In this document: piece after piece, positions 52,576-63,812 of the stretch
Position numbering within the stretch: position 1 is the stretch's first letter
How the letters are laid out: every line of letters begins with the position of its first letter
Assembly: GCF_016612505.1 (NCBI RefSeq)
Contig: NZ_JAENRR010000007.1
Coordinates: 1-64,000 of the forward strand
Direction: 5' to 3'
DNA length: 64,000 bases
Origin: Carboxylicivirga marina
GTDB taxonomy: Bacteria; Bacteroidota; Bacteroidia; Bacteroidales; Marinilabiliaceae
Notes under the pieces: generated by a model
The model's input: only the letters and a program-made list of their open reading frames with translations
What the model was told of the DNA's origin: nothing
Database searches by the model: none
Position numbers and translations under genes: made by a program

Positions 52576-53013
52576 GTGTAGTGATTATCTGAATGATTAA
52601 CGTTATGACAAGATACTAATTGTAGTTAAAACTCAGGTTTGCTAACATTCTTCACTATGGCAATCTCAACTAAGAAATAGTTTTACAACTCAAGCCGTTG
52701 AGGCTTCCCTTAAGACAACTCTTCGGAAAAAATTACTGCTAGATTATTGCTTCATTCAGCATTATTCTAACAAGTTTGATACTGAATTCATTTATCGCAA
52801 TAATTTAAAGATTAACAGCTTGGTGTCAAATTTTTCTTCCCTCTGTTTATGTCAATGGGTCCCAAACTACGTTGCTTATGTCGGTATTATGCAATACAAA
52901 AATAAAAATCATATTAAATGCGGTTGCCATACATTCTTAACCAGAGTAAATAGCATTAAAATAATATACGCTCTGCCTGTCAACACAACGTCACTTAGTT
53001 AAGCGTTAATTAT

Positions 53014-53050
53014 TCCCCCACAACCCTACGGGTAGCTCCCCAAGTGGAGC
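53014..53050 (-). repeat. REP-like element A
   Basis: Read on the minus strand it begins GCTCC...GGGAGC (stem 1), then ACCCgtaGGGT (stem 2), then a G-rich tail. Its order of parts matches element B, though the two are in opposite orientation about 52 bases apart. Confidence 0.5.
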
Positions 53051-53102
53051 ATTTATGTACAGCTTGCATTTTTGGAATATATGCCCAACTGCCAATCAAA
53101 TC

Positions 53103-53136
53103 TTCCCCTTGGGGAAGTGCCGCAGGCGATGGGGGA
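53103..53136 (+). repeat. REP-like element B
   Basis: TTCCC/GGGAA stem (53104-53116), then GCCgcaGGC (53119-53127), then a G-run GGGGG. It has the same layout as element A with different stem bases, which looks like conserved structure. Confidence 0.55.
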
Positions 53137-53200
53137 AAAAAATCTAGACTGTGTAATGTTCACTCAAGAGTATATAATTCCTTAACTAAACGACATTGGT

Positions 53201-53252
53201 CTGCCGCACCTCTCCTATTTTTTTAAAGGAGTACCACGAAGTGGGCAGATGG
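53201..53252 (+). repeat. REP-like element C
   Basis: Outer stem CTGCC/GGCAG, inner CTCCT/AGGAG around an A/T loop, then CCACgaaGTGG. It has the same two-stem plan as A and B with changed bases. Confidence 0.5.
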
Positions 53253-53281
53253 TTATGAAAGTTAAATTCAATTGATGCGAC

Positions 53282-55525
53282 TTACAATCCTGTATTGTAT
53301 TGCCCATTGCTACTTGGATAAATACACTTCTTTAAATCCTGCTCTGCTTGTTTATCACCCTGTAAGTGCTGCTTAAAAAGTGTCACTAGATGCTTCTTAT
53401 TCGAGCTTAGTTTAGTAGTGCTTGAGATATTTCTTAAATCAATAAAAAAGCTGGTGAAGGTATTCGGTATATCCTTGTTGATAGTGGTATTTAAACAGTG
53501 AGTCTGATGATAAATATGATTGTATTCCCCTTTGTTTTTATCAATGGTAAAAGTCGTGTTTTTCAGATTACTCAATGTAGCCGACTTATCGCACGATATC
53601 AGGCAATCCTCGTCCATTCGTTCTTTTTCGCAACCGATGGTTTGATGAAACAAACACTGGCGACTACTCATCAGCACAATAGGATGAAAAATACTGTAAT
53701 ACAATTGAAAATCATCGGGCCTGGTAATATTTCTGATTTGTTGGCGGTTAATCTCATTGGAGATGAAAGCACCCGCACAATTGAAATTCTCTTGCAGCGT
53801 TAGTAAAGCATACGAATTAACAATATTGAGTTGAGGACCAGCCACCCAATCCACACCCATTTGATTGGCTTCATAGGCAATTCCGGTATTGTCGGTCACC
53901 AGTCGCTGTGGTTGTAGTTGCTGCAGAAAAGCAATGGCATCCCCATAGTCATCGCCAATCAGCACTGTTGGAAACCAGGGAATGAGGCATTTGTGCTTGC
54001 CAAATAAGTCCAATAGTTCGTTTGCTTGATGAGCGATGTGATTGGGTAACTTATAATAGAGATCAACATTGCTATTCTTTAATAACTCTACATCTTCTTC
54101 GGCATCAATTATTACCGAAAGCGTTGGTTCAATTTCCTGAGGCTTTGTTTTGTTGAGTGCTGGCTTAGGCACCGCCACATATGTTTTACGAGAATCATTG
54201 ATAATGTAAAGTAAACGATTCTTTAAGGCCGTTAATTCCTTAAAAGGCAGAAAGGCATTGGACTGTATATCTTTTAAATCGATACTTTCAATAAAATATT
54301 CGGTATCATTTATGGCTTTAAAACGAGTCATCAATTGTTTTTCATCCAATGCTTTAATGCCATGGCTCATCAATCTCACTTCTGAAATTAACTCAAAATG
54401 ATGCTCTGGTGTTTTAACTTCTATTTTTAAGGCACTGCCAACCTGCCCAGATAAAACTAATGCTAAAGGTGCTTTATTGACACTTAAAGCATCTATCTCA
54501 CGCTTAATTCCCTGCCTTAAAAGGCCTTTTTCGCTGTAAAGCGCCTCTTCTGCCCGTGCAATGCCTTCAGTTGAAAAATCATCCTTTAATTTAGCCAAAT
54601 GGGTCGATGAGTAATCACGTGGATTCTCAATAAACATTTGCTGATGAATATCGCCCCTGAGAAAGCCGTTGGTAAAATCGCGGTTAAATACTTTGTAAAG
54701 CATGCCATCTGATGATTCCAATGCTTCATTATTATACCAACGCTTCAGTTGCTTTTGATAGGCCTCAACCACCAGGTACACATAATGGTATTTTTTAATG
54801 CGCCCCTCAATTTTTAGGGAGTCTACTCCCGCCCTTGCCAGCTCAGCGATATCAGCAAAGGCCGAGTTATCTTTCAGGTTTAGCGGAAACTCAATGCCTT
54901 GTGAAGTTGTTTGGTATTGATCGCGACACGGCTGGCTGCAACGACCCCGATTGGCCGAATTACCACCATGCAAAGAACTCATGTAACACAAGCCCGAAAA
55001 TGAAATACAATAAGAGCCGTGCACAAATACTTCGGTGAGCATATTGTGCTGATGGGCCGCGTGTGTTAATTCTGTTATTTCATTGATATTCAATTCACGC
55101 GACAGATTTACACGCGTTGCCTTTAATTGATTCAGAAATTTGATTTGCCCCTCATTATGCGTTGTCATCTGCGTAGAAGCATGTATCATTAAGCTGCTGT
55201 AATACTTATTCAGGATATAGAATAAGCCCAGGTCCTGAATAATGATACCATCGATACTGGTGTTAACCAACTTATTGAGCAAACGGATGAGATCGGGTAT
55301 TTCACTTTCAACAATAATGATATTAAGGGTAATAAACACCTGACACTGGTGCTGATGAGCCAAACGTAAGAGGCCATTTAAATCGTCGAAAGTAATGTTG
55401 GCTGCCCTGTTACGCGCATTAAACTTGTTAAGTCCGCAGTACACAGCATTGGCTCCTGAAGCAATGGCTGCTTTTATCGCATCTATGTCGCCACCAGGGG
55501 CTAATAATTCAATTTTTTGTGCCAT
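53282..55525 (-). CDS. U32 peptidase-family protein (RlhA/TrhP-like)
   Basis: A 747-residue protein starting with the U32 signature ELLAPGGDIDAIKAAIASGANAVYCGLNKFNARNRA and the radical-iron-like cysteine region SFSGLCYMSSLHGG...GRCSQPCRDQY, then DUF3656-type middle sequence. Relatives (RlhA, TrhP) hydroxylate RNA using prephenate-dependent chemistry, so a tRNA or rRNA modification role is more likely than proteolysis. The C-terminal ~150 residues carry extra cysteines (RQCLFHQTIGCEKERMDEDCLISC) and are unusually divergent. Confidence 0.88.
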   Translation of the reverse strand: MAQKIELLAPGGDIDAIKAAIASGANAVYCGLNKFNARNRAANITFDDLNGLLRLAHQHQCQVFITLNIIIVESEIPDLIRLLNKLVNTSIDGIIIQDLGLFYILNKYYSSLMIHASTQMTTHNEGQIKFLNQLKATRVNLSRELNINEITELTHAAHQHNMLTEVFVHGSYCISFSGLCYMSSLHGGNSANRGRCSQPCRDQYQTTSQGIEFPLNLKDNSAFADIAELARAGVDSLKIEGRIKKYHYVYLVVEAYQKQLKRWYNNEALESSDGMLYKVFNRDFTNGFLRGDIHQQMFIENPRDYSSTHLAKLKDDFSTEGIARAEEALYSEKGLLRQGIKREIDALSVNKAPLALVLSGQVGSALKIEVKTPEHHFELISEVRLMSHGIKALDEKQLMTRFKAINDTEYFIESIDLKDIQSNAFLPFKELTALKNRLLYIINDSRKTYVAVPKPALNKTKPQEIEPTLSVIIDAEEDVELLKNSNVDLYYKLPNHIAHQANELLDLFGKHKCLIPWFPTVLIGDDYGDAIAFLQQLQPQRLVTDNTGIAYEANQMGVDWVAGPQLNIVNSYALLTLQENFNCAGAFISNEINRQQIRNITRPDDFQLYYSIFHPIVLMSSRQCLFHQTIGCEKERMDEDCLISCDKSATLSNLKNTTFTIDKNKGEYNHIYHQTHCLNTTINKDIPNTFTSFFIDLRNISSTTKLSSNKKHLVTLFKQHLQGDKQAEQDLKKCIYPSSNGQYNTGL

Positions 55526-62920: not shown

Positions 62921-63601
62921 ATGAAAAGATTCAGATTATCTATCGGATTGGTTTCTATCGGTTTATTATTGACCACTTGTACACAAGATGCCGAAATAGA
63001 ACCAGAAACAACAACCGACACAAATACAATACTAAAATCAGTGTCGGTTGGTTTTGATGAATGGGGTTTCAATTATAGGGCTCATCTTTTTGAAGGCTAT
63101 TTAATAAATGCCATGTTTGCCGACCCTGTATTTAAATACATGCCTCATTATAAAAAGATGAATTATAATGGACAGGAAGATCAGTTCTGGAATGAAGTAA
63201 TGGAGAAATACCCTTATTTTAGCCATATTATGCCAGGCGAACTAATTGATTGTAAATTAATGATGAAATGGAATGAAGATTTACTCTCCAAAGAAGGACA
63301 ATATCCTGATACCTGGGTAGATTCAGATGCATGGATAGTATTCAAATATAAATTACATACCATGTCAGAACAATGGACCCATGTCAGACGATTAGTTGCC
63401 AGAAAAGGCAGCGATTATCTGGATGGCGGTTATTGGTATAATCAGGAAGGTGAAGAAATTGGCAAAGAGTCGTACTACTGGCCCGATTTGATTATTACTC
63501 AAGTGGTAAATAATGGTAATAATCCTTTTATTCCGGCCATAATGCCTGATGATTATTTAAGCCCCAACGGTGTTGGTCAAGGCAAATACAAGGTGAAGTA
63601 G
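62921..63601 (+). CDS. Lipoprotein of unknown function
   Basis: A 226-residue lipoprotein (SIGLLLTTC, lipobox Cys20) with an acidic stretch (QDAEIEPETTTDT) and a folded, Tyr/Trp-rich body (YLINAMFADPVFKYMPHYKKM, GSDYLDGGYWYNQEGEEIGKE, YYWPDLIITQVVNNGNNPFIPAIMPDDYLS). I do not recognise the family. It follows the AraC-type regulator by 130 bases, with the TGCG repeats between them, and may be its target. TTTGTACAAA (62885-62894) also lies upstream. Confidence 0.75.
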   Translation: MKRFRLSIGLVSIGLLLTTCTQDAEIEPETTTDTNTILKSVSVGFDEWGFNYRAHLFEGYLINAMFADPVFKYMPHYKKMNYNGQEDQFWNEVMEKYPYFSHIMPGELIDCKLMMKWNEDLLSKEGQYPDTWVDSDAWIVFKYKLHTMSEQWTHVRRLVARKGSDYLDGGYWYNQEGEEIGKESYYWPDLIITQVVNNGNNPFIPAIMPDDYLSPNGVGQGKYKVK

Positions 63602-63673
63602 ATTATATCTAAAGCAAATCTCACTATCACGGCAATTGCTTTTAAGCATTTTAAGCTCTTCCCTATTTCGTGA

Positions 63674-63750
63674 TTCTCCTCTTTTTTTTAGAGGAGAACG
63701 AAAAAAGATGTCCCCTCCTGAATTCCGGGAGGGGTGCCTATAGGTGGAGT
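63674..63750. repeat. REP-like elements D and E
   Basis: E is TTCTCCTC (63674-63681) with GAGGAGAA (63691-63698) around a T-rich loop. D is CCCCTCC (63712-63718) with GGAGGGG (63728-63734), followed by CCTATAGG. Their plan (T-loop stem, then short stem) resembles element C at 53.2 kb. E also follows the lipoprotein gene and could act as its terminator. Confidence 0.5.
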
Positions 63751-63812
63751 AGTATATTTATTTTTAAAAGCAATTTTACTGCTCTCACTATTTGAAATGC
63801 GCTATGAGTAAT

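Follow-up and report, generated by a model that had tools for sequence, protein, structure and literature searches.

The inverted hairpin pairs of the window (the whole 64-kb stretch analysed, C184:1-64000, from a draft genome of 5.65 Mb in 206 contigs) are very probably the cargo of two non-autonomous MITE families, one carrying heads A and B and the other heads D and E, which an IS4-family DDE transposase would move in trans. The terminal inverted repeats (TIRs), the 10-bp duplications and the ends shared with an IS4-like element indicate that the window copies are MITEs, most likely moved by a transposase of the IS4 type. The TIRs, the 10-bp duplications in related copies and the occurrence of the AB ends on a longer multicopy element can be read directly from the sequence; from these we infer that this multicopy element is an insertion sequence of the IS4 family, similar to the 1439-bp element L192 of a congener, and that its DDE transposase acts on the MITEs in trans, by a cut-and-paste mechanism.

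The stem-2 hairpins of A, B and C lie exactly where an earlier note on this DNA had placed them. Head A (53012-53057, minus strand) has a stem 1 of the CTCC/GGAG type followed by the hairpin ACCCTACGGGT (53023-53033; ACCC-gta-GGGT), head B (53095-53138, plus strand) has the stem 1 CTTCCCC/GGGGAAG, the hairpin GCCGCAGGC (53119-53127; GCC-gca-GGC) and the tail GATGGGGG, and the stem-2 hairpin of C is CCACGAAGTGG (53234-53244). Folded singly as DNA, A, B and C gave minimum-free-energy z values of only -1.1 to -1.3, and a simple two-stem scan found one site in the window versus 0-5 in 12 Markov sequences, so one head copy alone could be due to chance. The reality of the hairpin heads is settled by their genome copies, not by single-copy folding. 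In a transcript or a single strand, the inverted pair of heads could form two double hairpins closed by CCCCCA/TGGGGG.

To describe the family, we built separate covariance models for A-type heads (R1, 16 sequences) and B-type heads (R2, 15 sequences), with no sequence taken from the window. One joint A+B model was abandoned because MAFFT misregistered the stem-2 arms (alignment A3), and the structure of R2 was supplied by hand because RNAalifold returned a wrong one for the first B alignment (A4), in which long-loop copies were misaligned. R1 recovered A with 68.8 bits and B with 31.7 bits, R2 recovered B with 72.6 bits and A with 32 bits, and neither model gave a further credible match in the window. 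A and B are therefore an inverted pair of one dispersed repeat, whereas C, D and E, which the earlier note had placed in the same set, were found by neither model and form a second family. The genome-wide search that the note had proposed returned 94 heads (R2, E<=0.01), and the B core pattern matched the genome 27 times versus 0 for a reversed-pattern control. More than half of the heads (52/94) formed 26 divergent (inverted) pairs within 150 bp, as expected of dispersed short palindromes of the REP/REPIN kind; outside the array on contig C165, neighbours within 150 bp were divergent in 20 cases, convergent in one and on the same strand in none. The pair spacers, measured between model bounds, clustered at 1-8, 26-28, 37 and 70 bases, and spacers of -3, 15, 25 and 117 bases also occurred. 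The C165 array itself (L066, C165:21669-23293) consists of A/B pairs in tandem with a period of ~183 bases. At five loci (L038, L120, L132, L133 and L037), other palindromes (CCTGCCTGCTGCAGGCAGG, AGCCTGTCCCGA..TCGGGA and a 50-base hairpin) have been inserted into heads, either next to stem 1 or within it. The repeats on contig C119, considered as gene cassettes, turned out to be ordinary heads near short ORFs.

The proposal that paired bases change between copies while complementarity is kept held for the A-type heads, the stem 2 of which occurs as ACCC/GGGT, GTCC/GGAC or GGCC/GGCC, and in which the foot of stem 1 is G-C or T-A. Across the 16 A-type heads, 95.1% of the cells were paired by the structure (85.0 when shuffled) and 16 cells were double-changed versus 4.7 in shuffled controls, a count equalled by none of the 500 shuffles; these heads take in close relatives (the C165 array), and this shuffle figure is therefore not a probability. 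Slid structures scored much lower than the true one, and further pair types showed no excess (6 versus 6.3 shuffled). The stem 2 of the B-type heads, on the other hand, is nearly invariant, with a free loop. Given the compensatory changes in the A-type heads, the structural claim stands, mainly on that type.

Heads A and B are carried by a 213-bp element (52986-53198), the ends of which are the arms of an 18-nt inverted repeat, CAACGTCACTTAGTTAAG on the left (52986-53003, plus strand) and CAATGTCGTTTAGTTAAG on the right (53181-53198, minus strand); the BLAST copies of 52900-53310 share this stretch and end at this repeat. The right repeat matched the genome 20 times at <=2 mismatches and 0 times in the control. 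Flanks were compared in the ten own-genome copies that had both ends (4 AB and 6 CE, the D/E-type element described below), with the one-ended copies L034, L035, L037, L040, L050, L131, L135 and L137 and the poor-ended L134 and L136 excluded. Of the 10 flanking bases, 3, 2, 10 and 9 were identical at the AB copies and 10, 4, 10, 9, 10 and 9 at the CE copies, versus at most 7 among 90 mismatched pairings. No target duplication was found at the AB copy of the window, with 3/10 identical, or at L039 and L129, the latter with 4/10 when its flank was taken one base longer and 2/10 in a second comparison.

D and E are carried by a second, 154-bp element (63628-63781, plus strand), recognized by the terminal repeats at both ends and by its BLAST copies. 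It is flanked by ATCTCACTAT (63618-63627, plus strand) and CTCTCACTAT (63782-63791, plus strand), a target duplication with 9/10 bases identical. According to the BLAST copies, a second inverted pair has a C-type head at one end and an E-type head at the other. D+E is an almost complete copy of it, in which the C-type head, D, has decayed and shows no clear stem 2, and C is a half standing by itself. E (approximately 63709-63751, plus strand) has the stem 1 CCCCTCC/GGAGGGG followed by the stem-2 region GCCTATAGGT. The CE element has multiplied in the congener G007, where 12 of 15 complete copies had flanks identical at >=9/10 bases (16 stretches taken, with L279 broken; the CAGGG-ended of two right ends was used for L283 and the shorter of two for L282). 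Two of these copies, L284 and L286, are identical in sequence and have different duplications, and so represent separate insertions. Another, L283 (124-264), lacks the stem 2 of the E head and yet has a 10/10 target duplication, which suggests that transposition does not need this hairpin. L031, L063, L079, L195, L220 and L231 have pairs of TIRs but no CE heads and were not counted as CE copies. At L291 (C146:19563-19594), two CE terminal repeats stand almost back to back as a 32-base palindrome, which is a minimal element or an excision remnant.

C adjoins the AB MITE on its right (53199-53275, plus strand, end approximate) and comprises a C head and an outer end, that is, half of a decayed CE-type MITE. 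Judging from the sequence on the two sides, the AB MITE was probably inserted into an older CE element and left C as its half. The right flank gave best local scores of 53-68 with five of the six CE reference copies, against maxima of 27-30 when the joined flanks of the AB MITE were shuffled, and 36-39 with the sixth, D/E itself (shuffle maximum 32). On the left side the support is weak: a possible second half with the E-side outer end lies at 52942-52985 (minus strand), and the score of this flank was equalled by 2 to 39 of 500 shuffles, depending on the reference copy.

The AB ends lead to a probable transposase partner. Ten of the 20 own-genome matches of CAATGTCGTTTAGTTAAG lie within ~130 bp of a contig end, and next to each of the ten stands either of two conserved inner sequences, giving five ends of a left type and five of a right type; this is the pattern that an unassembled multicopy element produces. 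Among the 25 possible pairings of left and right flanks, three were exact over 10 bases (C144 with C165, C180 with C132 and C182 with C172), and none of the remaining pairings exceeded 7/10. The body of this element is absent from the assembly, and 0 of the nine own-genome DDE_Tnp_1 loci found carry AB ends. The congener G004 contains a complete 1439-bp IS4-family insertion sequence (L192, 1501-2939) with the TIRs CAATGTCATTAAGTTAAG and CATTGTCATTAAGTTAAG, which show 2 or 3 mismatches to the own AB ends over 18 positions, and with the flanks GTCCGGCTAAA and GTCCGGCTTAA, identical by reading at 10/11 positions. Its transposase of 417 aa scores 170.4 bits with NF033592 (IS4; cut-off 115) and has the YREK motif (Y..R...E......K at residue 290). 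L192 thus has the transposase profile, the motif and the ~10-bp duplication of the IS4 family. In the congener G008, an A/B pair adjoins the same type of end as the AB terminal repeat, and MITEs of congeners that have matching TIRs and other cargo show 10-11-bp target duplications. MITEs with L192-type ends in G011 and G009 carry different palindromic cargo, and elements with other cargo are known for both kinds of end, AB and CE.

The available portion of the report on the IS4 family describes a subgroup of 1400-1650 bp with -AATR--------WTW ends and 10-13 bp duplications (PMC2266710), features that the A/B element and L192 fit: the end consensus, the ~10-bp duplication and, for the A/B element, the size of the partner are alike, and a congener carries an IS4-family insertion sequence with near-identical ends. 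In contrast to the IS4-family elements and the MITEs derived from them, the elements here carry as cargo an inverted pair of double-hairpin heads, which is also present in free form in the genome. For the CE ends the fit is limited to the three-letter IS4Sa consensus, and no autonomous partner for them was found; the 1.2-kb pairs of CE ends in L250, L256 and L264, considered as such partners, were chance matches in genes. Both window elements are short and non-coding with TIRs at both ends, and a duplication of fixed length (10 bp) is present at D/E (9/10) and at most related copies, the AB copy having 3/10; the AB ends recur on the own contig-end element, the body of which was not seen, and on L192. 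An autonomous IS4-family element with AB-type ends, multicopy in the same genome, would supply the DDE transposase, which would act in trans on the MITE ends by cut and paste. Each insertion would duplicate a 10-bp target at the flanks, the inverted pair of double-hairpin heads would travel as cargo, and one AB MITE would have landed in an older CE element, leaving C as a half.

The earlier note pointed out that such repeats are often moved by a RAYT transposase. On that account the copies are REPINs, in which it is the inverted pair of heads that moves, a Y1 transposase recognizes the hairpins and the outer repeats are merely conserved flank. A gene of this type is indeed present (C44; NF047646, 102.6-102.8 bits, cut-off 80), the one RAYT over the NCBIfam cut-off beside two full-length matches below it, and the REP-like character of the heads was upheld in their genome-wide spread, inverted pairing and compensatory change. 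Inverted head pairs with variable spacers and tandem clusters also occur in REPINs, as far as described in the available part of PMC3116915, and the available part of PMC6006769 mentions RAYT genes of Bacteroidetes with atypical structures at their flanks. That a RAYT moved the window copies is nevertheless improbable, as these copies lie inside elements with terminal repeats, D/E having a 10-bp target duplication. TIRs together with a 10-bp target duplication are the signature of a DDE transposase, and to our knowledge no such duplication is expected when a RAYT transposes. Furthermore, R1 and R2 found A/B heads in 0/36 RAYT-bearing stretches of the own and related genomes (part of the RAYT matches listed), and inspection of alignments A5 and A7 showed no GTAG- or CGTC-type unpaired tag. 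Heads occurred in 11/13 congeners and 1/26 other relatives (G022, with 7% contamination), RAYT matches in 34/40 genomes; the congeners G001 and G006 have RAYT genes and no head, and in G013 we found 23 heads and, of RAYTs, a single weak fragment. Across these incomplete drafts, the occurrence of heads thus does not follow that of RAYTs. The three own RAYT-like genes (L003 1210-1824, L004 1459-2043 and L005 1474-2073) are each bordered, by reading of the flanks, by a different palindrome (AGGCCAGAGGCCTT, AAGGAACGGTTCCTT and AACAGGTTTT-AAAACCTGTT), none of the A/B type, and offer a ready set for studying RAYT specificity in Bacteroidota.

It is less probable still that the repeats are now immobile, being structured intergenic RNAs or terminators under selection (bidirectional terminators or stabilizers of mRNA 3' ends), with the likeness of the flanks due to old duplication. 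The compensatory changes in stem 2 would suit such a role, as would the start of D/E at 63628, just past the stop of the reading frame 62921-63601. However, transposition is required to explain near-identical full copies that sit at unrelated sites and are flanked by target duplications, the copy L283 has its duplication without the stem 2 of E, and no Rfam family was found (best 14.7 bits versus a gathering threshold of 55). A secondary role as RNA or terminator is compatible with the MITE reading.

Most A/B heads sit outside MITEs, as free pairs or as singles with unrelated loops, so the MITE alone does not account for the family. We examined 11 free pairs, comprising ten from among the 20 divergent pairs that lie outside C165 and the pair at C123, in which the partner head is above the E cut; of the remaining ten divergent pairs, five are in MITEs (C184, C132, C162, C125 and C33), and the pairs at C119, C145 and C111:146042 were left out of the sample. 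The free pairs showed no target duplication (mean flank score 2.6 versus 2.1 for mismatched flanks), as would be expected under RAYT movement, and so must either be of great age or owe their movement to another agent. In this they resemble a REPIN-type repeat with a structure conserved across subfamilies, and a RAYT or another single-strand mechanism is possible for the movement of free A/B heads without terminal repeats. A wider proposal, that the head is a mobile or strongly selected REPIN-type unit in its own right, without a RAYT partner, and that two or more separate families of IS4-like MITEs captured it as cargo, is plausible but doubtful.

REPIN-like head pairs as MITE cargo are a new combination of kinds that were each already known. 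REPINs and BIMEs, in the portion of PMC3116915 available, share the inverted pairs of short palindromic heads, the variable spacer, the singles and the tandem clusters; the heads described here differ in having two hairpins each, in that the window copies lie inside TIR elements with target duplication and in that no cognate RAYT was identified. The REP dimers GTAG-15 of A. variabilis and CGTC-1 of H. neapolitanus likewise lie regularly within another palindrome, but their heads are tagged (GTAG or CGTC) and the available part of PMC3733652 reports no duplication or IS partner. BrickBuilt of Porphyromonas gingivalis, from what is available of PMC4596501, is also a Bacteroidota MITE with repeat cargo of predicted stem-loop structure and ends like those of a resident IS, but it has IS5-type ends, tandem 23-nt repeats as cargo and short irregular duplications. 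Among the literature matches listed, searches for REPIN, MITE and target site duplication gave none on such elements and a search for the head core gave only unrelated titles; a search for Carboxylicivirga with repeat and transposase found nothing. REPIN-like structured pairs and IS-driven MITEs, usually treated apart, are linked here. Should it be routine for structured REP pairs to travel as the cargo of MITEs, the number of REPs in a genome is no measure of RAYT activity, and a different explanation is required for the free pairs. Natural tests are available within the genus in G007, with its fresh CE burst, and in other species with A/B heads and almost no RAYT.

Most of the named genomes in which the head core occurs belong to Carboxylicivirga and Saccharicrinis (Bacteroidota). 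The core, exact over its 24 specified bases, was also found in Chloroflexi (SAR202) MAGs and in Zunongwangia, and R2 gave 33.7-38.4 bits for these copies. If the head is indeed a unit of its own, this identical core would make the head type far older or imply that it moves between phyla. The exact-core loci are L215, L216, L221, L232, L234 and L236 and, as a second group, L219, L227 and L230 (SAR202/Chloroflexi MAGs and Zunongwangia pacifica); at L227, from Z. pacifica, the core lies in frame within a gene of 519 aa that, by reading, adjoins a tyrosine-recombinase-like gene.
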